Positions 25,413 through 58,376 are shown, counted from the first letter of the stretch. The stretch is 63,260 nucleotides of DNA from Acidimicrobiia bacterium (GCA_036396535.1 DASWKR010000072.1:1-63260); one strand, 5' to 3'. Notes: a model not told the origin generated them from the letters alone. Made by a program: numbers and translations.

Positions 25413-26060
25413 TCAGACGGGAGCGGCGTTCCCACTCTCGCGCCCGACCACGAACCAGATGGCGTGAACCGGGACGTCCCCCTTGTTGAAGAGGCGGTGA
25501 GGCCTGGTGGAGTCGAAGGCGATCGAGTGGCCCGGTGTCAACTCGTACTCGTGGAAGCCGATCTGGATACCGAGCGTGCCGGACATCACATAGCCGTACT
25601 CGCGCCCGTGATGGCGCATCAGCGACTCATCCGGTGTCGACGAGCCGCCCACCTCGTAGGTGGCGTGCAGGAAGTCGACCCCGTCCTCCGACGTGGCAGT
25701 GAGCTCTTCCCACCTCACTCCGGACTCCAGGTCGATCCACTGACGGTCCTCGGGACGAACGAGCGGCGATTCCTCATCCGCTGAAGCGACAGGGCGATCG
25801 CTGTCGTCGTAGTCGTCGCCCCTGATCACTCGGTCGAGGGACACGTTCAGCTCGGTGACGATGGCGTACAGGGTGCCCACGGAGGGCTTCGAGAGGCCGC
25901 TCTCCACCTGCGAGATCATGCTGGCCGACAAGCCCAGCCGTCTGGCGAGCTCGCGCTGGCTGATGCCGGCGTTGGTTCGCTCTTCGCGGAGCCGATCTCC
26001 GATCCGCTCGAGATTGTCGAGGAGGTCCGCCCGTTGCCCGTCGCTCACATCAACATCCAT
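25413..26060 (-). CDS. XRE-family regulator with C-terminal cupin
   Basis: Transcription factor of 215 residues. Residues ~18-75 are a Cro/CI helix-turn-helix (RLREERTNAGISQRELARRLGLSAS; MISQVESGLSKPSVGTLYAIV). Residues ~110-205 are a small-molecule-sensing cupin (HHGREYGYVMSGTLGIQIG and ELTPGHSIAFDSTRPHRLFN). Such XRE-cupin proteins control uptake and breakdown of amines, amino acids or purines. It overlaps the SDR gene by 16 nt and faces the bicupin/amidohydrolase/ABC operon, so it probably regulates that operon. Confidence 0.92.
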   Translation of the reverse strand: MDVDVSDGQRADLLDNLERIGDRLREERTNAGISQRELARRLGLSASMISQVESGLSKPSVGTLYAIVTELNVSLDRVIRGDDYDDSDRPVASADEESPLVRPEDRQWIDLESGVRWEELTATSEDGVDFLHATYEVGGSSTPDESLMRHHGREYGYVMSGTLGIQIGFHEYELTPGHSIAFDSTRPHRLFNKGDVPVHAIWFVVGRESGNAAPV

Positions 26061-26743
26061 CCGCCGTCGACATAGAGGTTGATCCCGTTCATTGCCTTGT
26101 TCTCGAGGAGGAAGGCGGTGGCGTCGACCACATCGGCCATGGTGGCGAGGCGCCCTGTTGGTGTCTGGCGGACCACGGCGTCCAACTGCTTGCCTTCCCA
26201 GAACGGGCTGTCACCGACGATCCCGGGATGAATGGCGTTGAAGCGGATGGGCGCCAGCTCGATCGCCAGCGTTCGGATGAGGCTGCTGACTCCTCCGTTG
26301 ACGGTGGTCACGGTGGTGGAGCCCGGGTACGGCCGATCCTTGGCTCGGCCGCCGAACAGAACCACGGAGCTGTCGGTCGAGAGCCTGTCGATGAGGGTGT
26401 GGATCGTCTGCGTGTATCCGACCAGCTTCATCGTCGTGAGGTACAGGGCCGACGCCACCGTGTAGTCGCGGATCGGATTGTTGTCTCTGGCGATGGCAGC
26501 GAGGACGAGCCGTGAGACCGGTCCCACCTCGCTGAGCGAGCCGGCGATCGACTCGGGGTCGCTCAGGTCGATCCCGAGGCTCGTGACGCCGTCACCGATG
26601 CCGGCGGCGATCTCGGCCGACCGCGCCGGGTCGCGACCGGTGATGATCACAGGTGCGTCACGTGCCTGGTAGTGGCGAGCGACCTCCCGTCCCAGGCCAC
26701 CCGTCCCGCCGACGATGAGAACTGAGCCCTCGGCCAATGTCAC
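26045..26743 (-). CDS. Short-chain dehydrogenase/reductase
   Basis: NAD(P)-dependent oxidoreductase-like protein of 232 residues. GGTGGLGREVA is the TGxxxGxG-type dinucleotide motif. The usual YxxxK catalytic pair is not evident: the region reads GSTTVTTVNGGVSSLIRTLAIEL, so the Tyr and Lys seem replaced. The end INLYVDGGWMLM is normal for the family. It may bind cofactor without standard catalysis. GTG at 26743 follows GAGGAG. Co-transcribed with the XRE-cupin gene and divergent from the catabolic operon. Confidence 0.85.
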   Translation of the reverse strand: MTLAEGSVLIVGGTGGLGREVARHYQARDAPVIITGRDPARSAEIAAGIGDGVTSLGIDLSDPESIAGSLSEVGPVSRLVLAAIARDNNPIRDYTVASALYLTTMKLVGYTQTIHTLIDRLSTDSSVVLFGGRAKDRPYPGSTTVTTVNGGVSSLIRTLAIELAPIRFNAIHPGIVGDSPFWEGKQLDAVVRQTPTGRLATMADVVDATAFLLENKAMNGINLYVDGGWMLM

Positions 26744-27133
26744 GACTCCTCGCCTCGAAGTGAACTGAGCATATACGTCCGGGCTCGCCGTGTGCAGTGA
26801 GGCTGAACGATCCGGCCATCGGACCCGCATCGTCCCTACCCGTCATCGAGATCCAGAGCCGTGGCAGGCACGGAGCTGTCCCAGACACGGTATGGCCGGT
26901 GCGACGAGGATTCCGTCATTTTGCATGGCTCAGGAGGGCAGTCCGTGTGTAGTGTCACTGATCGTGAGGGGAACTCCGATCCTGTCGTGGCAGTGATCGG
27001 CCTCGATTGGACGGGAGGCGCCGGTCGCTGAGAGCGGCGAGACCGTCCCCCAGCCGGATTAGAGCGGCAGAGGGGTGAGGGATGGGGAGCCCAAGACTCG
27101 AGCCCGAGCCTTCCTCGGGGGTGAAGAGGTCTG
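26744..27133. promoter_or_regulatory. Divergent promoter region of the heterocycle operon
   Basis: 390 bp between the SDR/XRE unit and the bicupin operon. On the minus strand a -10-like TATATG at 26770-26775 suits the SDR start. AGTGTCACT at 26951-26959 is a small palindrome, and ATCG-type half-sites occur around 26960-26983. No strong operator is recognisable, and I see no small gene. Confidence 0.4.
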
Positions 27134-28039
27134 ATGGCCGATCACATCGTCAAGAGCGCAGGTGATCTGCGGTACTCGACACCGGTCGAGTTCTCGGACA
27201 AGAGCCGCGGGTACAGCGCCGACTCGGTTGTCGACGAAGCGGGCGGGGCGGTTCAGATGGGCTTTCGCGTTGCCAGGCTCGAGCCCGGTGGTCGAGTAGA
27301 AAGCCATCTCCACTCGTTCGAGGAGTCGCTCTACGTGGTAGACGGCTCGCTGATCGTCACAACGCCGGAAGGCGCCTTCGAGCTGACCTCCGGCGACTAC
27401 GGACTGCTGCCTGTCGGCGTCGTCCACTCGTTCAGCAACACCTCGGCGCTGCCGGTCTCGTTCGCCGAGATGAAGGCGCCGTTGCCTCGTCAGAGTGCCG
27501 CCTTCGACACTCACTTCACCGCCTCCCTCCCGAGCGGCCCCGCCAGGGTCATCGATGTCCGAGATCCGCGCAACCGTCGCTTCGGTCACATCGACGCCGA
27601 ATCGATGGATCCGGCCATGCAGACCCAGGACCGTCTGGCGGTCAGTGCCAGCATGCGGACTGCGCTGCTGGTCTACAGCGGCATCAGCGTCAAGATGATG
27701 GTCGACTCGGACCTGGGCGCCGACCTCTCGACGATGTTCATGGTGCAGTACGAGCTCGGAGGGTTCGCCGGTGCCCACGACCATCCTCTCGAGGAGGCCT
27801 ATCTGATCCTGGATGGGGAGGTCGAGGCGGCGTTCGATGGCACGACGTACCAGCTCGGTCCCGGGGACGTCGCCTGGGCCGGTGTGGGATGCGTCCACGA
27901 GTTCCGCAACATCGGAACTGGCCGCGTCACATGGCTGGAAACGCAAGCGCCCCAGCCCCCGGCGAGGCACTCGTACCGATTCGCCCGCGACTGGGCGTAC
28001 CTCGAAGCCGCCCTCGCCGAAGAAGCCCAGGGCGGGTGA
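27134..28039 (+). CDS. Bicupin resembling (S)-ureidoglycine aminohydrolase
   Basis: Two-cupin protein of 301 residues similar in layout to ureidoglycine aminohydrolase (AllE/YlbA), which takes ammonia off ureidoglycine in purine breakdown. Cupin one has HLHSFEESLYVVDGSLIV and GDYGLLPVGVVHSF; cupin two has HDHPLEEAYLILDGEVEAAF and GDVAWAGVGCVHEFRN, with His, Glu and Gln/His metal ligands. Both barrels keep the H-x-H and E ligands, as expected of an active metal site in at least one. First gene of the heterocycle operon, so ureide or cyclic amide metabolism is a reasonable inference, not proof. Confidence 0.78.
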   Translation: MADHIVKSAGDLRYSTPVEFSDKSRGYSADSVVDEAGGAVQMGFRVARLEPGGRVESHLHSFEESLYVVDGSLIVTTPEGAFELTSGDYGLLPVGVVHSFSNTSALPVSFAEMKAPLPRQSAAFDTHFTASLPSGPARVIDVRDPRNRRFGHIDAESMDPAMQTQDRLAVSASMRTALLVYSGISVKMMVDSDLGADLSTMFMVQYELGGFAGAHDHPLEEAYLILDGEVEAAFDGTTYQLGPGDVAWAGVGCVHEFRNIGTGRVTWLETQAPQPPARHSYRFARDWAYLEAALAEEAQGG

Positions 28040-28148
28040 CCATGGGGCGAACTATGGCCGGTTCTGGCGCGACATGCAGGTCTCTGGGAGCGATGGCTGT
28101 CGCACGGGAAGCGCGACGACAGCGCCTGCGATCGTCACGGAGCAGGTC

Positions 28149-29489
28149 GTGACCTCGAAGACCCTGATCCGCGGCGGCTACGTCCTCACTCTGGGGGCCA
28201 AGACAGCCAACCTCGCCGAGGGCGACGTTCTCGTCGAGGACGGCACAGTCGTCGAAGTCGGTCCCGGGTTGCGTGACCGTGACGCCGAGGTCGTGGACGC
28301 CTCGGGCACCATCGTCATGCCGGGGTTCGTCGACACCCACCGACATGTCTGGAAGTCGCTCTTCAAGAGTCTCGGTGACGGCGGCTCCGATGGGGCGGGC
28401 CCGGTGCCGGCGGCAGTCGTCGGGCATCACCATCGCCCGGAGGACGTCTACGCCGCCACCCTCACCGGGTTGCTGGGGGCGGTCGAGGCAGGTATCACAA
28501 CCGTCGTCGATTGGTCCGACATCCAGTTCGACGCCCGATACACCGATGCCGCCCTGCAGGCGCACGCCGACGCCGGGCTGCGGACGGTGTTCGTCCACTC
28601 CGCCCCGCACTGGGCCGAGAGCCACGAGGATGTCAGACCGGCGTTGCGCCGTCTCGCCGGCATGAGCGCCAGCGCCCCGGGGTCGCCGACCACGTTCGCC
28701 TACGGGCCGATCGATCCGAAGCGGTCCGACCTCGACCGCGCCGCCGACGAGTGGGCCTTGGCCCGAGAGCTCGGCCTCCGCATCCATGCCCACGCCGGCT
28801 CGGAGGCGTCCGACCGAGGCGTCGTCTCCTCTTTGGCCGAGCGTGGCCTCCTCGGCGAGGACGTCACGCTCGTCCACTGCTCCCACCTGGACGACGCCGA
28901 GCTCGACGCCATCGCCTCGACCCGGACTGCGGTGTCGGTGACGCCTGCGAGTGACATGGCCGGGGGTCGAGGGAGGCCCCCGACCCAGCAGCTGATCGAC
29001 CGAGGCATCCGGCCCGGACTCGGCGTCGACGACGAACGGGTGGCGCCGGGTGACATGTTCGCCCAGATGCGGGCGTTGATCTCGCTCCAGCACGCCACGC
29101 TTTTCGACCTCAAGCTCGCCGGGAAGGGCGGAATCCCGAATCTCCTCAGCACCCGAGACGTGATCCGCTACGCCACGCTCGACGGCGCTCGCACCGCCGG
29201 CCTCGGTGGCGTCACCGGATCGATCGAGCCGGGCAAGCAGGCGGACATCGTCGTGCTGCGCGCCGACCGCCCGAACGTCTTCCCGATCAACGACCCGATC
29301 GGTGCAGTGGTGTGGGGCATGGACACGTCGAACCTCGACTCGGTCTTCGTAGCAGGCAGGGCACTCATGCGCGGCGGCGTCCTCCAGGCAGACGTGGCAC
29401 GGGCCCGAAAGCTGGCGACCGCGGCACAGGGCCGAGTCGGCGCCGCCGCCGGGCTGATCGTGGGGACGGTCTCAGGAGGTGAGCGGTGA
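28149..29489 (+). CDS. Amidohydrolase-family deaminase/hydrolase (1)
   Basis: TIM-barrel metallohydrolase of 446 residues, of the cytosine/guanine deaminase and atrazine chlorohydrolase-like branch (COG0402). Metal ligands visible: His64 and His66 in VDTHRH, His213/His215 in HAHAG, the VHCSHLDD histidines and the Asp pair in GLGVDDE. The small beta-sandwich is built from TLIRGGYVLTLG and the C-terminal GKQADIVVLRAD. GTG at 28149 follows GGAGCAGG. It overlaps the first permease gene (GTGA). The substrate is probably a nitrogen heterocycle taken up by the adjoining transporter. Confidence 0.88.
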   Translation: MTSKTLIRGGYVLTLGAKTANLAEGDVLVEDGTVVEVGPGLRDRDAEVVDASGTIVMPGFVDTHRHVWKSLFKSLGDGGSDGAGPVPAAVVGHHHRPEDVYAATLTGLLGAVEAGITTVVDWSDIQFDARYTDAALQAHADAGLRTVFVHSAPHWAESHEDVRPALRRLAGMSASAPGSPTTFAYGPIDPKRSDLDRAADEWALARELGLRIHAHAGSEASDRGVVSSLAERGLLGEDVTLVHCSHLDDAELDAIASTRTAVSVTPASDMAGGRGRPPTQQLIDRGIRPGLGVDDERVAPGDMFAQMRALISLQHATLFDLKLAGKGGIPNLLSTRDVIRYATLDGARTAGLGGVTGSIEPGKQADIVVLRADRPNVFPINDPIGAVVWGMDTSNLDSVFVAGRALMRGGVLQADVARARKLATAAQGRVGAAAGLIVGTVSGGER

Positions 29490-30538
29490 CCACGACCCGC
29501 GCTCCGTCCGCCGCCATCACCTCCTTCGTCGTCGCTTCTCGCTACCTGCCGGTCTACCTGGCGCTCCTCCTGCTCCTGGTCGTCGCATCGATCTGGGCTC
29601 CGGCGGCGCTGAGCGAAGTCGCCATCCGTGCCATGCTCCCTTACGGAGCCCTGCTGGCCGTGACTGCCCTCGGCCAGATGCTGGTGATCATGACCGGCGG
29701 CATCGACCTCAGCATTCCCGGCACGATGAGCCTGGCTGCCGTGATCGTCGTCGGGGTCGGTGGCGGTTCGAACGAGAACCTCGGGATCGCTCTGGCCGCC
29801 GCCCTCGGCGCCGCCGCCCTCGTCGGACTGGTCAACGGCATCCTCATCGGCGCCCTCAAGCTCAACGCGCTCATCGTCACCCTGGCCGTCGGCCAGATCG
29901 TGATCGGCTTCGTCAGCCGGTACAGCGCACGGTTCCCCGTGCAGAGCCCGGTGCCGCCGGCGCTGTCCGACTGGACCTCGAGTCGCGTCTTCGGAGCCAG
30001 CCCGGTCTTCTGGCTGGGGGTGGCGTTGACGATCGTCCTCATCGTCGGGCTGCGCTACACGAACATCGGCCGGAGGTTCCAGGCGGTGGGAGCGAACCCG
30101 GTGGCGTCTTCGGTGGTTGGGGTGCGCGTCAGCCTGAATCAGATCCTGGTGTACGCCGTCGCTGCGGTGTTCTACGCCGCGGCAGGGATCGCCCTGGCCG
30201 GCCTCCTTCGCAGTCCGGGAGCAAGCGTCGGCGGCCAGTACCTGCTCGGGCCCATCGCCGCGGTCGTGATCGGCGGCGCCTCACTCACCGGGGGCCTGGC
30301 CAGCCCCCTCTCAACGTTCGCCGCCGCCTTCTTCCTCACCGGCCTCAATCAGATGATGCGGACCATGGGCCTGCCGACGGCTCTCCAGTTCGTGGTGTTC
30401 GGCCTGGTCATCATCGGCGGCATGCTGGTTTCGGGCGATCGGATCATCAAAGGCGTGGAGCGGCTGCTCCGCGAACGGCGACGATCGAGTCATCCGGAAG
30501 TACGAAAAACGGTGAGCTCCATCGACGAGACGGGTTGA
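29486..30538 (+). CDS. Ribose-type ABC transporter permease (1)
   Basis: Membrane subunit of 350 residues of the RbsC/BPD_transp_2 family, about 9-10 helices. LGQMLVIMTGGIDLSIPGTMSLAAV is the family's GGIDLSxG signature, and ANPVASSVVGVRV and GASLTGGLASPLSTFAAAFF are the coupling-helix and late-helix motifs. It starts inside the amidohydrolase stop codon. With the second permease half fused at 33610 it would make a heterodimeric channel, as in nucleoside importers. Confidence 0.93.
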   Translation: MTTTRAPSAAITSFVVASRYLPVYLALLLLLVVASIWAPAALSEVAIRAMLPYGALLAVTALGQMLVIMTGGIDLSIPGTMSLAAVIVVGVGGGSNENLGIALAAALGAAALVGLVNGILIGALKLNALIVTLAVGQIVIGFVSRYSARFPVQSPVPPALSDWTSSRVFGASPVFWLGVALTIVLIVGLRYTNIGRRFQAVGANPVASSVVGVRVSLNQILVYAVAAVFYAAAGIALAGLLRSPGASVGGQYLLGPIAAVVIGGASLTGGLASPLSTFAAAFFLTGLNQMMRTMGLPTALQFVVFGLVIIGGMLVSGDRIIKGVERLLRERRRSSHPEVRKTVSSIDETG

Positions 30539-30614: not shown

Positions 30615-32018
30615 ATGAAACCGAGCAGAATCATCGGCCTCTTGGCCGTGTTCGTGCTCGTCGCGGCTGCCTGCGGCGGCGACGGCGACGACACCACGAC
30701 CACGGTCGGCGGCGGAGAGACGACGACGACGGCCGCAGCAGCCCCGAGCACGACTGCCGCCGGCGGCGGGGAGTCGACCACTACCACGGCGGCGGCGACC
30801 ACCACCGCGGCCCCGAGTGACAACCCGCTCGCCGATTACGGCGAGACTCTCGATGCGGATCCGGCGCTGATCGACAAGGCACTGGGACCGGTGACGCCAT
30901 CGGACGAGGCGAGCTGGAACATCATCCTGGCGTCGGTGGCCCGCGCCAACCAGGACCTCGATCAGGCCAGGATCGACAAGGCGATCGAGTGCTGGAGCAA
31001 CCAGGAGTGTGACACCGGAAGCGGCGGTGAGCTGGTGATGGGTTATGCCGACGGTGGCGGCAACACCGTCAACGTGTGGCGGGCAGTCAGTCACATGGAG
31101 GCAATCCTCCAGGCCCTCACCTACCCCGAGATCGGAGCCATCGTCTCGACCGCGGCCGACTTCAACCCTGATGTGGCCGTCCACGTCAACGACATCCGGT
31201 TCCTGATCCAGCGGGGCGTCGACTTCATCGTCGGCTACCCGGATCAGGGTGTGGGCCTGGCCGACGTCGTTCGCGAGGCAGAGGCGGCCGGCATCGAGTA
31301 CATCGCCTTCTCGGCCGGCTACGTCGGTCTTCCCGATCAGCAAGGCGCCCTCATCCCAGGTGAGGACCATCTGACCGTGGTCGGCGAGGACCTGTGTGAT
31401 CTCGGCGAGAGCTTCGCCACCGTCTTGAACGATGGGGTCGGCACCGGCGAGGTGGCACTCCTGGGCGGCACCCCGGGGAACGCTCTGTCGCTCGGATGGC
31501 AGCGATGCACCATCGATGCTCTCGGCGGCGAGGTGGAGCTGGCGAACCCACCGGCCAACGCTGACAGCACCACCGGCGACACCAGCTGGTTCCCGCCGAT
31601 CATCCCGGACGTGTTCCGCGGGCTGCTCTCCACCAACCCCGACATCAAGGGCTGGGCCTACGAGTACGCCGATGGGATGTTCTTCGGGCTCCCCGTGTTC
31701 ACCGAGCTGGGAATCTCCCTGGAGGGAACGACCATGGCCCTGCGCACGGACGAGCAGAGCCTGTTCTGCGATTGGGCCGAGCGCAACGACCCGACGTACA
31801 ACATCTTCTACTCGGCCGGTGGCAACTTCCAGTCTCGGATCGGAGTCACCGCAGCCATGCTCGACGAGAAAGGGGCCGAGGTCCCAGGCCAGATCATCGT
31901 GCCGCACGTGATGCGACAAGTGACGGCCGACGACTGCAACCCGGATCGGGCGACCGAGGCCGTGTCCGGGACGTCGCTGGTGCCCGACCCGGTGCTGCGA
32001 CTCATGTTCGGCGGCTGA
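30615..32018 (+). CDS. Substrate-binding lipoprotein of the ABC importer
   Basis: Exported solute-binding protein of 467 residues. Lipobox VAAACGG at about residues 16-22 anchors it to the membrane, followed by a Thr/Ala-rich linker to residue ~70. The Peripla_BP_4-like body starts near GELVMGYADGGG and includes GVDFIVGYPDQGVGLADVVREAEAAGIEYIA-like sugar-binding-protein folds and LLSTNPDIKGWAYEY. It is longer than ribose-binding protein because of the linker and an N-terminal insert. GGAGGAGG precedes the ATG. Ligand unknown. Confidence 0.92.
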   Translation: MKPSRIIGLLAVFVLVAAACGGDGDDTTTTVGGGETTTTAAAAPSTTAAGGGESTTTTAAATTTAAPSDNPLADYGETLDADPALIDKALGPVTPSDEASWNIILASVARANQDLDQARIDKAIECWSNQECDTGSGGELVMGYADGGGNTVNVWRAVSHMEAILQALTYPEIGAIVSTAADFNPDVAVHVNDIRFLIQRGVDFIVGYPDQGVGLADVVREAEAAGIEYIAFSAGYVGLPDQQGALIPGEDHLTVVGEDLCDLGESFATVLNDGVGTGEVALLGGTPGNALSLGWQRCTIDALGGEVELANPPANADSTTGDTSWFPPIIPDVFRGLLSTNPDIKGWAYEYADGMFFGLPVFTELGISLEGTTMALRTDEQSLFCDWAERNDPTYNIFYSAGGNFQSRIGVTAAMLDEKGAEVPGQIIVPHVMRQVTADDCNPDRATEAVSGTSLVPDPVLRLMFGG

Positions 32019-32047
32019 TGAGCGAGGGCGATCCGAGAGGAGGGTCG

Positions 32048-33613
32048 ATGCCGGGTGACGTCGTCCTCGAGCTGACGGGTGTGTCCCGCCAGTTCGGGGC
32101 GGTCCGAGCGCTGACCGACGTCAGCTTCGACTGCCGCGCCGGCGAGGTCCACGCCGTCGTCGGCGAGAACGGCTCCGGCAAGTCGACCCTCCTCGGGATC
32201 GCCAGCGGGTTCGTCGACCCCGATCTGGGCACCGTCCAGATCGGGGGCAGAACCCTCCGTCGCGACTCTCCTGCGTTGGCCAGGCGGCTGGGCCTGGCAA
32301 TGGCCTATCAGGACACATCGCTCGTCCTGGCCGAGCCGGTGAAGAACAACCTCTATCTGGCGGCACCAGAGGAGCAGCGGCCTCCGTACTGGCGGAGGAA
32401 GAGATGGGCGAGGAAGCTGCTCGCCGATTTCGATCTCGATCTCGAGTTGTTCCCCGATGCCCCCGCAGGCCTACTCACCTTGGCCGACCGCCAGCTCTTC
32501 GAGGTCGCCAAGGCGCTGGTCACCGACCCGAAGGTGCTCCTCCTCGACGAGCCGACCACGGCGTTGGGACCGGACGAGGTCGAGGCGCTCCATCGCACCG
32601 TCGCCGCATGCCGGGCCCGGGGAGTCGGTGTTGTGTACGTGAGCCACCGCCTGCCCGAGGTCCTGGAGATCGCCGACCGGATCACCGTCCTCCGGGACGG
32701 CCGCAAGCAAGGCACCTTCGACGCTCGCCGGACCACCGAAGCGGAGCTGGTCGAGCTGATCGTCGGCCGCCCCTTCGAGGCGGCCTTTCCTCCACCCGCT
32801 CTCTTGGAAGCCGAGCGCCGCGACGTCCTCACCGTCGAAGGGCTCCAGGGCCAGTCGTTCGGTCCGGTCAGCTTCACCCTGGAGAACGGAGAGATCGTCG
32901 GCATCGCCGGAGCCGAGGGAAACGGCCAAGCACAGCTCTTCGACTGCCTCGCCGGCCGCCAAGCACCCAAGGCCGGGCGCGTGGTGTGCGACGGTCGGGA
33001 ACTGTCACTCGTCTCCACCCACGAGGCGGTGCGGGCCGGTCTCATGCTGCTGCCCGGCGACCGCAAGCACGAAGCGCTCATGACGGTGCTCGGGGTCAAG
33101 GTGAACGCGACCATCCAGTCTCTGCGCCGCTTCTCCGCCTTCGGGTTGCTCCGAAGACGGGCGGAGCGGCGTACCGTCTCCGACCTGGTCGAACAGCTGG
33201 AGATCAGGACGCCGTCGCTCGACCAGCCGGTCGAGTTCCTCTCCGGCGGCAACCAGCAGAAGGTCTCGGTGGCCAGGTCATTCCTCAGGGAACCCGTGGT
33301 GATCATGGCGTACGAGCCAACTCAGGGCGTCGACGTCGGCTCCCGGTTCGACATCTACAACGCGCTGCGGGCCAGAACGGATGTCGGGACCGCACTCCTC
33401 GTCAAGTCGAGCGACCCAATCGAGCTGGCCGGACTCTGTGACCGGGTTCTGGTCATGTCACGAGGACAGTTCATCGAGGAGATCCCCGGCGACGAGCTCA
33501 CCGAACTGCGCATCGTCGAGGCGATCGTGCGAGGCCCTGGCCTCTCCAAGGCGGGACGTTCTCCGCTCGGTGTCGCCATGCCCAAGGCGCCACCTGTCAA
33601 GGAAGCACCGTGA
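32048..33613 (+). CDS. Double-NBD ABC ATPase, RbsA-like
   Basis: Energy-coupling ATPase of 521 residues with two nucleotide-binding domains. Domain one has Walker A GENGSGKST with Lys45 and Walker B VLLLDEPTTAL, but its signature LTLADRQ is degenerate. Domain two has signature LSGGNQQK, a degenerate Walker A (GAEGNGQ) and a Walker B in which the Asp before the Glu is Tyr422 (MAYEPTQGVD). One composite site is therefore likely canonical. I chose ATG 32048 with GAGGAGGG upstream; an ATG at 32018 overlaps the previous stop and is an alternative. It overlaps the next gene (GTGA). Confidence 0.93.
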   Translation: MPGDVVLELTGVSRQFGAVRALTDVSFDCRAGEVHAVVGENGSGKSTLLGIASGFVDPDLGTVQIGGRTLRRDSPALARRLGLAMAYQDTSLVLAEPVKNNLYLAAPEEQRPPYWRRKRWARKLLADFDLDLELFPDAPAGLLTLADRQLFEVAKALVTDPKVLLLDEPTTALGPDEVEALHRTVAACRARGVGVVYVSHRLPEVLEIADRITVLRDGRKQGTFDARRTTEAELVELIVGRPFEAAFPPPALLEAERRDVLTVEGLQGQSFGPVSFTLENGEIVGIAGAEGNGQAQLFDCLAGRQAPKAGRVVCDGRELSLVSTHEAVRAGLMLLPGDRKHEALMTVLGVKVNATIQSLRRFSAFGLLRRRAERRTVSDLVEQLEIRTPSLDQPVEFLSGGNQQKVSVARSFLREPVVIMAYEPTQGVDVGSRFDIYNALRARTDVGTALLVKSSDPIELAGLCDRVLVMSRGQFIEEIPGDELTELRIVEAIVRGPGLSKAGRSPLGVAMPKAPPVKEAP

Positions 33614-36060
33614 GCACACGCGTCGACTCGGCGAGGCGCGCCGTCAGGAAGGTGATCCGCGACGCCCGCGACAAGAACAAATGGAGGAAGATCGTCAAGT
33701 TCCGGCTGTGGATGCCGGTCGCCCTCCAGCTGCTGTTGATCGGTGCTCTGCTCTGGTACACGACGACACGGTTCCCCGGCTTCATCAACGCCACCAACGT
33801 CGAGCAGATCCTCATCCTGGCCCTTCCCCTGATCGTGGTGACGATCGCCCAGACCCATGCCCTGCTCGTCGGCTACCTCGACCTCTCGGTAGGAGCGATG
33901 ATCAGCCTCGGTGTGGTTCTCGCATCGTTCTACATAGGTGCCGAGGCGAGCATGTCCCAGATCTTCCTCGGAACCGGGCTCATCCTCCTCTGTGGAGTCG
34001 CTCTCGGTCTCGTCAACGCCACCCTCATCCGCGGCTTCAAGATCCCGTCGATCATCGCCACCCTGGCCACGCTCAGCATCCTGGACGGCATCGCGCTCAC
34101 CCGGCGCCCGACCGCCCAGGGCGTGATCAGCGGCGACCTCGTTTCCTTCCTCACCGCGAGCATCGGACCCATCCCGGTGGCCTTCATCGTGATCGTCCTC
34201 GGCGCCGCCCTGCTCGACCTGTGGCTCCACGGATCCGGATCGGGCCTCGCTCTGCGATCTGTCGGATTCGACGAGCGCTCGGCGAAGCGAGGAGGCGTCA
34301 GCACCAATTGGCTGCGAGTGCGTGCCCTCCTCCTCTCCGCGGTGCTGGCGGCCGTCGCTTCGTTCTTCGTCATGGCTCGATCGCCGATCGGCAACGCTCA
34401 GGTCGGCTCCACGTTCGCGCTCAACAGCATCACCGCGGCCGTGCTCGGCGGGGCGGCGCTGGCCGGGGGAAGAGCGACGTTCATCGGCGGCACAGTGGCG
34501 GCGGTCCTCCTCGCCCTCATCCTCACCGTCCTGCCCTACCTCGGCCTCTCAGCCAACGACGGCGCCATGATCATCGGCGTCCTCGTCCTGATCGGGATCG
34601 TCCTCTTCCAGGCGGGAGACCTCAAGGAGCTGGTGAAGCGCAACTACAAGCGGGCTCGACGCCTCGTCATCGGCAGCCGCGCCGCCAAGCAGGCAGAGCT
34701 CCCCGCCTACTACCCGGCAGGCATCGATTTCAGCGTCGTTTCGACCGATCGCAAGCTGATCAAGGGCGGAACGGTGCTCAGCATGGACCCGAGCGTCGGC
34801 GACTTCACCGGGGACGTGCTGATCGACGGCGCCACCATCGTCCGGGTCGGCCCTGAGCTGAGCAATGGCGAGGTGGAGGTGATCGACGCTACCGGAATGA
34901 TCGTCATGCCCGGGTTCGTCGACACCCACCGCCATATCTGGGAAGGCTTGCTTCGCAACATCGGCACCGACGTGCCTCTCGAAGGACGCAACGGCTACAT
35001 CTCGTTCGTGCTCCACAAGCTGGCGCCCGCCTTTCGGCCCCAGGACGCTTACGTCGGCAACCTGGTCTCCGCGCTCGGAGCGATCGACGCCGGGATCACG
35101 ACGCTGCTCGACTGGTCGCACATCCAGGGCTCTCCCGCCCATACCGATGCCGTCATCCAGGCGCTGAAGGACTCGGGGATGAGGGCCGTTTTCGCCTACG
35201 GGTTCCCGTGGTGGGGGAAGTGGGAGGAGCGGCAGCCGAGCTGGTTCGTCAGGGCCGCCACCGAGCACTTCTCGTCGAAGGACCAGATGCTCACGCTGGC
35301 CCTGGCGGCGCCCGGCCCGGAGTTCACAGATTTCGAGGTGTCACGAGACCATTGGAAGCTGGCCAGGGAGACGGGGGCAAGGATCACCACGCATGTGGGA
35401 GTGGGCAGCTACGGCCAGGACGCCAAGGTCCAGGAGATGGGCAAGGCGGGGCTTCTAGGTCCGGACACGACCTACATCCACTGCACGACGCTCAACGACA
35501 CCGAGATCCAGATGATCGTCGACACCGGCGGTACCGTTTCGCTGGCGTCTCCCGTCGAGATGATGATGGGCCACGGGATGCCTCCGATCCAGAAGTTCCT
35601 CGACAGGGGTCTGCGTCCCAGCCTCAGCATCGACGTCGAGACCAACGTGCCGAACGACATGTTCAATCAGATGCGCTCGGTGCTCGGCCTGCAGCGGGCC
35701 CTGGCCTCCGCAGAGGGCAAGGCGCCCATGGCCACTCGCGACGTCTTGGCTTGTGCCACGGTCGAGGGCGCCAGGGCGAATGGCCTCGAGTCGAAGGTCG
35801 GCACCCTGACCCCCGGCAAGCAGGCGGACGTGATCATGCTCCGCACCGACCGCATGAACGTCACACCGCTCAACGATCCGGCTGCCGCCGTCGTCGCCTC
35901 CATGGACACCAGCAATGTGGAAACCGTCCTGATCGGCGGCCGGGTGATGAAGCGCCACGGGCAACTCCTCCACGTCGACTGGCCTGCGGTTCGCCGCGCC
36001 GTGCTGGAATCCCGCGACTACGTCGTTGAGAAGTCGGGGTTCAAGCTACCCAAGGTCTGA
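33610..36060 (+). CDS. Fusion: ribose-type ABC permease plus amidohydrolase
   Basis: 816-residue protein joining two normally separate parts. Residues ~30-350 are an ABC permease of the RbsC family (VGYLDLSVGAMISLGVV signature, about 9-10 helices). A linker of ~30 residues follows (AKQAELPAYYPAGIDF), then a full amidohydrolase from ~380 to 816, with metal ligands His440 and His442 in VDTHRH, His595 in ITTHVG, His624 in YIHCTT and Asp675 in SIDVET. No start codon or ribosome site lies at the domain border, so the link is real at the reading-frame level. The enzyme would sit at the cytoplasmic mouth of the channel. It starts inside the ATPase stop codon and closes the operon. Confidence 0.9.
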   Translation: MSTRVDSARRAVRKVIRDARDKNKWRKIVKFRLWMPVALQLLLIGALLWYTTTRFPGFINATNVEQILILALPLIVVTIAQTHALLVGYLDLSVGAMISLGVVLASFYIGAEASMSQIFLGTGLILLCGVALGLVNATLIRGFKIPSIIATLATLSILDGIALTRRPTAQGVISGDLVSFLTASIGPIPVAFIVIVLGAALLDLWLHGSGSGLALRSVGFDERSAKRGGVSTNWLRVRALLLSAVLAAVASFFVMARSPIGNAQVGSTFALNSITAAVLGGAALAGGRATFIGGTVAAVLLALILTVLPYLGLSANDGAMIIGVLVLIGIVLFQAGDLKELVKRNYKRARRLVIGSRAAKQAELPAYYPAGIDFSVVSTDRKLIKGGTVLSMDPSVGDFTGDVLIDGATIVRVGPELSNGEVEVIDATGMIVMPGFVDTHRHIWEGLLRNIGTDVPLEGRNGYISFVLHKLAPAFRPQDAYVGNLVSALGAIDAGITTLLDWSHIQGSPAHTDAVIQALKDSGMRAVFAYGFPWWGKWEERQPSWFVRAATEHFSSKDQMLTLALAAPGPEFTDFEVSRDHWKLARETGARITTHVGVGSYGQDAKVQEMGKAGLLGPDTTYIHCTTLNDTEIQMIVDTGGTVSLASPVEMMMGHGMPPIQKFLDRGLRPSLSIDVETNVPNDMFNQMRSVLGLQRALASAEGKAPMATRDVLACATVEGARANGLESKVGTLTPGKQADVIMLRTDRMNVTPLNDPAAAVVASMDTSNVETVLIGGRVMKRHGQLLHVDWPAVRRAVLESRDYVVEKSGFKLPKV

Positions 36061-51077: not shown

Positions 51078-51263
51078 CACGAGACCCATGCATTCGATGT
51101 TCGCGGTCGCTGTCGACGGCGGCGACGCTCCTCAGGCTCGGCCACCCCGCTGTCCAGGGGAGGATGCGCGCCACCGAGACGTCCCGATCAGGCGGCTCGG
51201 CGGAGGGGTCATCGTGCTGTGCCGGCGGGGCGTCTCACCTGCGTCGAAGGAGAGAGTGGGAGC

Positions 51264-52340
51264 ATGACGCTTCAACGCGACGCTCCGGTCCTCGAGAGGC
51301 TGTCGACGCTCGACCGGTTCCTTGCGCTGTGGATCGGCGCTGCCATGGTCGCCGGGCTCGTCCTGGGACGGCTGATTCCGGACCTCAACGACTGGCTCGA
51401 CACCGTCAAGATCGGCAGCGTGTCACTTCCCATCGCCGTAGGCCTGCTGGCGATGATGTACCCCGTGCTGGCCAAGGTCCGGTACTCACAGATCGGCGAT
51501 GTCGCCACCGACCGCACACTCATGGCCACCTCGCTGACTCTCAACTGGGTCGTCGGCCCGGCCCTCATGTTCGCTCTCGCGTGGCTGCTGCTCCCCGACC
51601 TGCCCGAATACCGCACCGGGCTGATCGTCATCGGGCTGGCCCGCTGCATCGCCATGGTCCTGATCTGGAACGATCTCGCCTGCGGAGACCGGGAAGCTGC
51701 CGCGGTCCTCGTCGCCGTGAACTCTGTCTTCCAGATCGTCGCCTATGCCGTCCTCGGCTACCTCTATCTCGAATTGCTCCCGGGATGGCTCGGCCTCGAT
51801 ACCACCAGTCTGGACGTGTCGATGTGGGAGATCGCAAGGATCGTCCTCGTCTTCCTGGGCATCCCCCTCGTCGCCGGATACGTGACGCGGCGATGGGGTG
51901 AACACAGCCGCGGGTTGGAGTGGTACGAGAACCGGTTCCTCCCCAGACTCGCCCCTTGGGCCCTCTACGGGCTCCTGTTCACGATCGTCGTGCTCTTCGC
52001 CCTCCAAGGGGAAACCATCACCGCCCGACCCTTCGATGTCGCCCGTATCGCAATACCACTCCTCCTCTACTTCGTCCTGATGTGGGCCTCTTCCTTCGCC
52101 TTGGGTTTGCGCCTTCGCATGCCCTACCCCAAGAACGCGTCGATGAGTTTCACCGCGGCCAGCAACAACTTCGAGCTCGCCATCGCCGTTGCCATCGGCG
52201 TGTTCGGGGTGACGTCAGGCGAAGCTCTCGCCGGCGTCGTCGGACCCCTCATCGAAGTCCCGGTCCTCGTCGGACTTGTCTACGTCGCCCTCTGGGCGCG
52301 GCGACGCTTCTACCCGACCTCCACGCTGGAGCCGGCGTGA
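51264..52340 (+). CDS. acr3: Arsenite efflux transporter, Acr3 family
   Basis: Ten-helix membrane exporter of 358 residues for arsenite. LWIGAAMVAGLVLGRLIPDL and KIGSVSLPIAVGLLAMMYPVLAKVRY are the family's opening. The functional Cys128 lies in GLARCIAMVLIWNDLACGD, which is nearly invariant, and SFTAASNNFELAIAVAIGVFG is the second motif. GTG/ATG choice: ATG 51264 with GGGAG upstream. No arsR or arsenate reductase gene is adjacent; the only ArsR proteins in the window belong to SRPBCC pairs. It stands alone. Confidence 0.95.
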   Translation: MTLQRDAPVLERLSTLDRFLALWIGAAMVAGLVLGRLIPDLNDWLDTVKIGSVSLPIAVGLLAMMYPVLAKVRYSQIGDVATDRTLMATSLTLNWVVGPALMFALAWLLLPDLPEYRTGLIVIGLARCIAMVLIWNDLACGDREAAAVLVAVNSVFQIVAYAVLGYLYLELLPGWLGLDTTSLDVSMWEIARIVLVFLGIPLVAGYVTRRWGEHSRGLEWYENRFLPRLAPWALYGLLFTIVVLFALQGETITARPFDVARIAIPLLLYFVLMWASSFALGLRLRMPYPKNASMSFTAASNNFELAIAVAIGVFGVTSGEALAGVVGPLIEVPVLVGLVYVALWARRRFYPTSTLEPA

Positions 52341-55598: not shown

Positions 55599-56708
55599 TC
55601 AGACGATGGCGGCGATCCGCTCGACCATCTCGACGAGGAGGCCGTCGTCCATTGCGAAGTTGACACGGACATGTCCCTCTCCTCCGGGGCCGAACAAGGC
55701 ACCTTCGGAGACCGCCACTCTCGCCCGCTCCAGCAGGACCGCCCCGGGCGGATCCCATCCGTAGGCGCTGAGATCCACCCAGGCGAGGTATGTGGCCTCG
55801 GGCCTCGTGTAGCGCCCTCCGGGGAGCAGTTCGGCCAACAAGCTGCCGAGAGTCGCCCGCTTCGCCTCGAGCCTCGCCAGCACGTCCTCCAACCAGCTCG
55901 TGCCGTCCCGGTACGCGGCAGCGCTCGCCAGCAGGCCGAAGGTTCCGACCCCCCACATGTGAGGAACGAAGTGTCGAGACCACACATCGACATCGTGGTC
56001 GTTGGTCAGCACCACCTGGGCCGCCTTGAGACCGGGGAGGTTCCAAGCCTTCGTTGCCGCGGTGACGGTCACCACCGTGGCCGGGGACAGGCCGGCGGCT
56101 ACCACATGACTGTGTCCGGGGAAGGTGAGCGGCGCATGGATCTCGTCGGCGACCACCCGCCCTCCGTGGCGCTCCGCAACGGCGACCACATCTGACACCT
56201 CGGAAGCCGTCAGACTCCGGCCGACCGGGTTCCATGGATTGCAGAGGACGATCGACCCGGCCCCGGCGGCGAAGGCACGATCGATCCCGTCGAGGTCGAG
56301 GCACCAGCGACCGTCCTCACCTGGGTACGACCTCACGAGGATGTGCTCCCGGCCTGCCGCCGCCACCATCGTGAAGAACGGGTGGTAGATCGGTGGGTGG
56401 AGGATCACCGGCGAGCCGGGGGCAGTGAGATGCATCACGGCCCTCCGAAGACCCTCGACGACGTCGGGCACGTGAAAGACCCGACCGGGATCCACCCGCC
56501 AGCCGAAGCGTCCGGCCCAGAATACTGATGCCGTCTCGGCCACGGCGTTCCAGGCAGCCGGGTAGGGATACCCCGTGTCCGCTCTGTCGACCGCAGCGTG
56601 GAGCGCCTCAGTGATGGCGGGTGCAAGACCGAAGTCCATCTCCGCCACCCAGGCACCGATGACGTCACTCTCGAAGGAGTTCCACTTGAGTCCGGGGCGG
56701 GGTGTCAC
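55599..56708 (-). CDS. PatB/MalY-type PLP-dependent C-S lyase
   Basis: Fold-type I aminotransferase-like enzyme of 369 residues, best matching cystathionine beta-lyase PatB/MalY. WVAEMDFGLAPAITEAL is the diagnostic N-terminus, LCNPWNPVGRSLT binds the PLP phosphate/ring, VADEIHAPLTFPG supplies the Asp, and TATKAWNLPGLKAA holds the PLP lysine. The enzyme would cleave a C-S bond giving pyruvate, ammonia and a thiol. GTG at 56708 is the only start in the area. It follows the amidohydrolase gene at 56785 by 76 nt on the same strand, so they likely share a transcript. Confidence 0.88.
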   Translation of the reverse strand: MTPRPGLKWNSFESDVIGAWVAEMDFGLAPAITEALHAAVDRADTGYPYPAAWNAVAETASVFWAGRFGWRVDPGRVFHVPDVVEGLRRAVMHLTAPGSPVILHPPIYHPFFTMVAAAGREHILVRSYPGEDGRWCLDLDGIDRAFAAGAGSIVLCNPWNPVGRSLTASEVSDVVAVAERHGGRVVADEIHAPLTFPGHSHVVAAGLSPATVVTVTAATKAWNLPGLKAAQVVLTNDHDVDVWSRHFVPHMWGVGTFGLLASAAAYRDGTSWLEDVLARLEAKRATLGSLLAELLPGGRYTRPEATYLAWVDLSAYGWDPPGAVLLERARVAVSEGALFGPGGEGHVRVNFAMDDGLLVEMVERIAAIV

Positions 56709-56784: not shown

Positions 56785-58182
56785 TCAGCGGCCGGCCACC
56801 AGCCAGCCGGGCTCGGGATCGCCGAACTTGTCGAGCAGGTAGTCACGCGACGCCTCAACGGCCCTGCGCGGCGCATCGAGCGACGCCTCGAGCTTGAAGT
56901 CTTCCTTGAGCACCTCGCCATCGACGAGCACGGTCTTCACGTTCGAGATGTCGGCCGCGCAGACGACCGCACCCACGGCGTCGATGATCGGCGCGATGTT
57001 CACGGCCGACCCGTCGATGATCACGACGTCCGCCTTCTTCCCGGGGGTCAGCGACCCGGTGCGATCGGCGATCCCCGCCACCTCGGCTCCACCGATCGTG
57101 GCCCACGAGAGTGCGTCACGCGAGGTGATCAGACCGGGCGATGCCTGCAGGCCATCCAGGCCGTCGTCCCAAGCCGCCTGATGCTTGCGCCCGCGCTCGG
57201 TGCCGAAGACAGCGTGCATCTGGGTGAACTGATCCGCCGGTGCGGTCGTCGCAACGTCCGACGAGAGCCCGATCGGAATGTCGTACTCGACCGCGGTGAC
57301 CGCCGGCGCCCACCCGTGTCCCATCTGGATCTCGATCTGCGGTGCGAAGCTGACGTTCCCCCCGGAGTCGCGAACCAACTGCCACTCCTCGTCGGTGAAG
57401 TGCGAGGCGTGGACGTAGGTCGTGCCGGGATAGAGGAGATCCATGTCGCGCAACGCGGTGATCTGCCCCTTCGTGTAGCCGAACCGGTCCATGGCGACGT
57501 GCACCGTGATGTCGATGCCGAGCTCCTTGGCCAGCTCCCAGTCATGACGCACGACGTCCGGCTTGCAGAAGCCCGGTCCTCGTGTGGCGAGTCCCATGGT
57601 GATCCGGCCGTCGTCCGAGCTGAAGTACTGCGACCGGAGGCGGCGGGCCTCGTCACCGTCGGAGGTCAGCACACTGCCGGTGTAGTCGGGTCCGAACCAC
57701 CAGTCCACGAGCGAGGTGTTCGGAAAGCCATAGGCGAAGACCGATCTGATGCCCGTCCCCTCGAGGGCGTTGACCGAGGCGTCGGCGTGCTCGGGGGTGT
57801 TCATGATGTGCGCCCAGTCGACGAGCGTCGTGATGCCGGCGTTGATGCACTCGAGGGCGCCCCACTGTGTGGCCGAGTGGACGTCCTCCGGCCGATAGTG
57901 AGGGGCGAACTTGTCGAGGATCGCGCTGAAGTAGGTGATGAGCGCGAAGTCGGGGGCACACGTCCGGATGCACGTCTCCCACGTGTGCCGATGTGTGTCG
58001 ATGAAGCCCGGTATGACGATGTCGCCGGATGCATCGATGACCCGAGCGCCATCGGTCGAAAGGTCCTTGCCGATCGCGGCGATCTTGTCGTCCTCGATCA
58101 GCACGTCGGCGTTCGGCATCTCGCCGAGGTCGGGGTCCTGGGTCAGCACGATCCCGCCGCGGATGAGGGTTCGGTCAGTCAC
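56785..58182 (-). CDS. Amidohydrolase-family hydrolase (2)
   Basis: Metallohydrolase of 465 residues, of the same branch as those at 28149 and in the fusion at 33610: FIDTHRHTWETC, ITVHVAMD, YVHASHFTDEEW and LSSDVATT give the metal-site His and Asp residues, and LTPGKKADVVIIDG the end of the sandwich. GTG at 58182 (VTDRTLIRGG) is preceded by GGAGAAAGGA. It precedes the C-S lyase gene. A sulfur-containing or N-heterocyclic substrate is possible but unproven. Confidence 0.88.
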   Translation of the reverse strand: MTDRTLIRGGIVLTQDPDLGEMPNADVLIEDDKIAAIGKDLSTDGARVIDASGDIVIPGFIDTHRHTWETCIRTCAPDFALITYFSAILDKFAPHYRPEDVHSATQWGALECINAGITTLVDWAHIMNTPEHADASVNALEGTGIRSVFAYGFPNTSLVDWWFGPDYTGSVLTSDGDEARRLRSQYFSSDDGRITMGLATRGPGFCKPDVVRHDWELAKELGIDITVHVAMDRFGYTKGQITALRDMDLLYPGTTYVHASHFTDEEWQLVRDSGGNVSFAPQIEIQMGHGWAPAVTAVEYDIPIGLSSDVATTAPADQFTQMHAVFGTERGRKHQAAWDDGLDGLQASPGLITSRDALSWATIGGAEVAGIADRTGSLTPGKKADVVIIDGSAVNIAPIIDAVGAVVCAADISNVKTVLVDGEVLKEDFKLEASLDAPRRAVEASRDYLLDKFGDPEPGWLVAGR

Positions 58183-58376
58183 AGGCTCGGTCCTTTCTCC
58201 TTGCGCTCGGTCCCACCGGGTGACGAAGCCGTGCCAACGCACTGAGTCGGCGGCCGATACCTCAGCTCCCGGCACGTCATTCGCACTCGCTCAGGATCGT
58301 ACCCGACACGACGCTCGCTTCACCGATCGCACTGAGTCCCGGGCCCACGACAGCGGCCCGGGCGATGATGGGCAGC

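Follow-up and report, generated by a model that had tools for sequence, protein, structure and literature searches.

A 63,260-nucleotide stretch of DNA from an Acidimicrobiia bacterium (GCA_036396535.1, DASWKR010000072.1:1-63260; hereafter the window) carries, at 33610..36060 on the plus strand, a gene in which a permease of an ATP-binding cassette (ABC) importer and an amidohydrolase are joined in a single reading frame. This permease-amidohydrolase gene is a real, conserved transporter-enzyme fusion and not an error, as the same frame recurs in 46 distinct fused loci from two phyla; we consider it somewhat more probable than not (about 0.57) that the enzyme, tethered to the importer, carries out the first hydrolysis of the imported solute at the importer's exit. 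To our knowledge, ABC importer permeases usually lack a catalytic domain.

The fused gene, its relatives and its origin

The fused open reading frame has 816 uninterrupted codons, begins with GTG, and overlaps the stop codon of the ATPase gene before it. Its product of 816 amino acids consists of an RbsC/BtuC-type permease domain (residues ~31-355; 33700..34674), whose last helix is predicted to continue into the cytoplasm as a basic helix, a poorly conserved linker (residues ~356-378; 34675..34743) that is longer in some Chloroflexota, and an amidohydrolase domain of the PRK08204 subfamily (residues ~379-816; 34744..36057). The reading frame and the domain matches agree with one another, and bear out the first-pass annotation of this DNA, which had described one frame holding a permease and a complete amidohydrolase: in Pfam, BPD_transp_2 (PF02653) is matched at residues 64-327 with 62.5 bits (cut-off 26.8) and Amidohydro_1 at residues 431-779 with 107 bits (cut-off 25), and in NCBIfam, PRK08204.1/NF006056 is matched at residues 380-810 with 517 bits (cut-off 391); a fold match also supports the hydrolase assignment. 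The border between the halves was said to hold neither a stop nor a start codon. The first part stands, for the window and for all fused relatives; the second stands in a weaker form, as the in-frame codons GTG342, GTG389 and ATG392 are present (the latter two within the first strand of the hydrolase), and because none of these candidates is kept in all relatives checked, no internal start is indicated. Third codon positions are the most variable in permease, hydrolase and border alike, a coding-like pattern, and relatives carry the same frame across position 34700, near which a check of the frame had been advised.

Whole genomes and a species-level genome collection yielded the same two-domain frame, at 55-83% identity, in many independent assemblies. 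The alignment comprised 48 relatives and the window, of which 45 sequences were left after dropping identical hydrolase sequences; with one further gene split across two contigs, these make up the 46 distinct loci. The carriers, for the most part uncultured bacteria of soil and water, belong to Acidimicrobiia and Chloroflexota and include an isolate, Desertimonas flava (locus L045), that is not a metagenome-assembled genome (MAG). The relatives are thus fused with no stop at the border, and not the pairs of separate genes that would have spoken against the fusion. Across 395 genomes of the class, 23 matches to this clade's permease were obtained at E <= 1e-40 (one being a contig-end fragment); all 23 lie in the fused frame and none is unfused. 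An apparent unfused member inside the fused clade (L067) was rejected, since it shares 141 identical overlapping bases with the end of L112, such that the two are one fused gene broken by assembly. Fusion or hydrolase frames broken in single draft contigs, by error or decay, with one frameshift inside the hydrolase (L072 7049-10141, L072/G001) or several (L074 3-1216), were left out of the count of splits. A 78% identical fusion lies on a short contig binned as Fimbriimonadaceae (L037; Armatimonadota) and nests among the Acidimicrobiia; the binning is probably in error. A scan of viral contigs returned only one contig-end fragment (L104), and among plasmids only relatives of the hydrolase half were found, below 60% identity and none spanning 80% of the query.

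In a phylogeny built from the fused hydrolase domains together with stand-alone relatives, rooted on outgroup rows of the type of the operon's second amidohydrolase (AH2, described below), all 46 fused domains form one clade (ultrafast bootstrap 100, Shimodaira-Hasegawa-like approximate likelihood ratio test 99, present in 100% of bootstrap trees); the fusion thus arose once. The nearest relatives outside the clade are stand-alone hydrolases, mostly of Chloroflexota. The 30 fused rows from outside Chloroflexota, the contig binned as Fimbriimonadaceae included, group together as a clade (100/99) inside the diversity of Chloroflexota fusions (branches 96/87 and 99/96), and the simplest and most likely reading of this tree is an origin in Chloroflexota followed by one transfer to Acidimicrobiia. 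The closest unfused permease that was found (40-42% identical) belongs to a second operon of D. flava, L111, a plain importer operon of the CUT2 type (binding protein-permease-binding protein-ATPase-permease); it ends at residue 351 with no hydrolase, and follows the ATPase gene as the fused permease does. It plausibly shows the ancestral unfused state; the permease tree did not fix its position (long branch).

Predicted placement and active site of the hydrolase domain

A structural model of the permease domain matches BtuC (Z 15.6 over residues 21-337) and HmuU (Z 15.5); the top nine structure matches are all BtuC-type importers or metal ABC permeases, and the next has Z 7.4. In BtuCD, both ends of a permease of this fold are cytoplasmic. 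The N-terminus of the fusion contains 13 lysine or arginine residues in 32, the tail after the last helix contains nine, and the coupling-helix loop is also positively charged. Since the model has the BtuC fold, and the charges follow the positive-inside pattern, a cytoplasmic position of the hydrolase, at the face of the importer where the first-pass annotation had put it, is supported. In the model, the last permease helix extends to about residue 355 and a low-confidence linker follows, which, apart from the N-terminus, is the least conserved part of the fusion. Its length differs by tens of residues between phyla, and in some Chloroflexota it is longer (up to ~28 residues) and rich in glycine, serine and asparagine; because of this variability a rigid channel is disfavoured, and a flexible tether fits better.

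The hydrolase domain has the mononuclear metal-site pattern HxH, H, H, D, and its residues are invariant in the fused copies: the metal-ligand motif H440-R-H442 (34927..34935), the metal ligand H595 (35392..35403, a segment that includes V598), H624, the expected catalytic or ligand histidine (35479..35481), and D675, the expected metal ligand or general base (35632..35634). In deaminases, the glutamate three residues past the third metal histidine (the HxxE motif) is catalytic. It is present at this position in the alignments of 3HPA, Vcz (7WW2) and the Pseudomonas aeruginosa deaminase; all fused copies instead read H595-V-G-V598, and the glutamate is also absent from the other PRK08204 relatives examined. 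Because valine replaces it in every fused copy, deamination is not to be assumed, and the predicted reaction is a metal-dependent hydrolysis, not necessarily a deamination. Deaminase equivalogs of NCBIfam stay below their cut-offs (8-oxoguanine deaminase, 133 vs 532; 5'-deoxyadenosine deaminase, 167 vs 522), and no support was found for the purines, ureides, triazines or hydantoins that had been suggested as substrates. The fold is shared with 3HPA, P. aeruginosa adenosine deaminase, AtzA and isocytosine deaminase (Z 40-42, about 2.5-2.8 A over ~412-425 residues), whereas identity to S-adenosylhomocysteine/5'-methylthioadenosine (SAH/MTA) deaminase, 8-oxoguanine/isocytosine deaminase and AtzA/TrzN is about 20-26%, and these differ in the HxxE glutamate. 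With PRK08204/NF006056 the domain shares a score above the curated cut-off, the metal ligands and the missing glutamate; members of that family elsewhere are stand-alone, while this clade is joined to a permease.

The importer operon and related clusters

The fused gene lies, as first described, in an operon with a separate permease, an ATPase, a binding protein and a second amidohydrolase, to which we add three genes of the surrounding cluster. On the plus strand, AH2 (28074..29489; PRK08204, 397 bits in NCBIfam) is followed by the stand-alone permease (29486..30538; BPD_transp_2), the presumed heterodimer partner of the fused one, by a lipoprotein-like substrate-binding protein (30615..32018; Peripla_BP_4, 52 bits, cut-off 35.1), and by an ATPase of the AraG/RbsA type with two nucleotide-binding domains, seen as two ABC_tran stretches (32015..33613); from AH2 through the fusion, neighbouring genes overlap or lie no more than about 80 bases apart. 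Upstream, and also part of the operon, stands the double-cupin gene of the cluster (27134..28039, plus strand; Pfam match); a short-chain dehydrogenase (SDR; 26045..26830) and a PuuR-like XRE-cupin regulator (25413..26060), both divergent on the minus strand, are assigned to the cluster because both recur beside it elsewhere. The order AH2-permease-binding protein-ATPase-fusion is kept in 17 loci besides that of the window, and Chloroflexota have permease-binding protein-ATPase-fusion. Between 26000 and 36800 no sigma-70 promoter match and no terminator-like site above chance was found. No component of the transporter is missing, and the stand-alone permease has no other partner in it than the fused one; the importer is therefore likely to contain a permease heterodimer and a single hydrolase. 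The system resembles CUT2-type importers (RbsABC, AraFGH, LsrABCD) in its BPD_transp_2 permease, Peripla_BP_4 binding protein, double-domain ATPase and operon layout, and differs in that one permease bears a C-terminal amidohydrolase; none of the NCBIfam equivalogs of these three systems reaches its cut-off here. Comparison of the cupin and the binding protein with solved structures gave no pointer to the substrate.

Over nearly the same set of loci, the fused hydrolase and the ATPase are the best conserved parts of the operon (mean identity 80% and 79%), ahead of the permeases and binding protein (69-70%) and of AH2 (57%). The metal ligands of AH2 are lost in several genomes (L036, L063, L043, L072 and L029), so that the fused copy appears to be the one kept catalytically competent. 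AH2, which evolves much faster than the fused hydrolase, is a possible pseudo-enzyme partner.

Sister stand-alone hydrolases, 63-68% identical, occur in similar cupin-SDR clusters. In one of these, from the Anaerolineales genome H5_CFX7 (L114 3-17915, the same region as L070), the hydrolase is found with an importer that gene layout and sequence starts assign to the LivHMGF type; enzyme and importer thus seem to be functionally linked even when unfused, and because the same hydrolase clade adjoins a different importer type in another genome, the fused enzyme likely acts on the imported solute. The H5_CFX7 cluster continues with HpaB/HpaC-like flavin monooxygenase genes, the same catabolic module with a different transporter. 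In L053 a stand-alone paralogue of the fused hydrolase domain comes immediately after the fusion gene. Clusters L102, L053 and L061 add an M24 protein, a dehydrogenase of the 2-hydroxy-3-oxopropionate/3-hydroxyisobutyrate type and 2-oxoacid dehydrogenase subunits, and for this reason the pathway may end in the oxidative cleavage of a 2-oxo acid. A dimethylsulfoniopropionate (DMSP) pathway is not proposed, as the accessory M24 protein scores far below the DddP cut-off (114-118 vs 600).

Further genes were seen in the window and its genome. A third PRK08204 amidohydrolase, which is stand-alone (56785-58275, minus strand; 523 bits) adjoins a gene for a PatB-like C-S lyase/aminotransferase (55599-56708), and an ACR3-family arsenite efflux gene lies at 51219-52340 on the plus strand (TIGR00832, 445 bits vs 283). 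On another contig of the same genome (C2; L090 9311-10816) a stand-alone hydrolase with 68% identity to the fused domain lies near genes for a molybdenum hydroxylase large subunit, a LacI-type regulator and a cyclase-family-like protein.

A proposed tethered hydrolysis and its alternatives

We propose that the fused protein has two roles, as a catabolic enzyme anchored in the membrane and as a transmembrane subunit, one of two, in a CUT2-type ABC importer. A small organic solute would pass from the binding protein to the heterodimer of the permease encoded at 29486-30538 and the fused permease, with transport powered by the double ATPase; the PRK08204 hydrolase, connected through a basic helix and a flexible linker to the last helix at its cytoplasmic end, would then act beside the exit and hydrolyse the solute on entry in a first, metal-dependent step. 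Tethering would raise the local enzyme concentration and draw the substrate into catabolism. Outside its own families, the nearest working parallel is offered by the peptidase-containing ABC transporters (PCATs): in those of the PCAT1 type, the peptidase domain binds at the opening on the cytoplasmic side and cleaves the cargo at that site (PMC8794836). The likeness is a broad one, in that an enzyme domain forms part of a transporter chain, here on a side that fold and charges indicate to be cytoplasmic; PCATs are peptide exporters with the ATPase on the same chain, unlike the present small-solute importer, in which the ATPase is a separate chain and the domains are unrelated.

Several observations weigh against tethered hydrolysis. 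The linker lacks conservation and was modelled with a confidence below 50, the full model does not place the domains reliably relative to each other (predicted template modelling score 0.57), and nearly all fusion sequences come from MAGs. Several Chloroflexota clusters, moreover, hold an unfused close copy of the hydrolase beside the fused one; tethering is therefore not required for the chemistry, and the coexistence hints that the tethered copy has a role of its own.

The alternative that survives best, although we hold it to be unlikely, is that the fusion only fixes stoichiometry and co-expression: neighbouring operon genes lost the stop between them, and an enzyme and a permease that share a pathway remained joined with no kinetic gain. 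Fusions usually arise from genes that are neighbours in an operon, and the variable linker and coexisting unfused copies agree with this explanation; yet the clade's permease was never unfused among the 395 genomes of the class and no reversal was detected in the 46 loci, which suggests some advantage. A stronger coupling, akin to group translocation, in which the hydrolase at the permease exit converts the substrate as it emerges, such that uptake and the first catabolic step are coupled in a clade-specific class of transporter, is rather unlikely; the first-pass annotation had proposed a transport-linked channel of this kind, and that proposal is weakened by the poor conservation, variable length and low model confidence of the linker and by the unfused close copies.

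It is quite improbable that the fused domain is a sensor that binds the internal solute or product and trans-inhibits transport, like the C-terminal regulatory domains of MetNI and ModBC. C-terminal cytoplasmic domains on ABC importers are commonly regulatory, and the deaminase glutamate is missing, but every metal-binding residue and most of the barrel show no variation, and the domain has diverged less than the permeases and the binding protein, both of which would be expected if the enzyme is active; ligand loss is seen in the unfused AH2 instead. Still less probable is that the protein is processed, or that translation from an internal start yields the hydrolase separately as well, leaving enzyme free in the cytosol: GTG342 has AAGGAG three bases upstream in the window, but this spacing is short, the codon is not kept in all relatives, and the border region has no conserved start. 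That a sequencing or assembly error removed a stop at about 34700 has next to no probability and is already refuted by the relatives, since, although the source MAG is in 94 contigs, the same fused frame is found in 46 distinct loci of independent assemblies, an isolate genome included.

Each half of the protein belongs to a known family. In agreement with the initial statement that no fusion of this pair had been described, we found in the open-licence full-text literature neither a description of a permease-amidohydrolase fusion nor a paper that names PRK08204; the combination is new as far as that literature shows, and domain databases may already list it. With its single origin, its spread across phyla and no split form in any genome searched, the fusion offers a natural experiment on the benefit of tethering, with ready controls in a catalytically dissectable hydrolase and in sister enzymes and a sister permease that are unfused. 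The widespread PRK08204 subfamily carries only the name 'hypothetical protein', and its link here to an importer and a cupin-SDR catabolic cluster offers a pointer to its function; and if tethered hydrolysis is the true reading, uptake and the probable first step of breakdown would in these bacteria be built into one protein.

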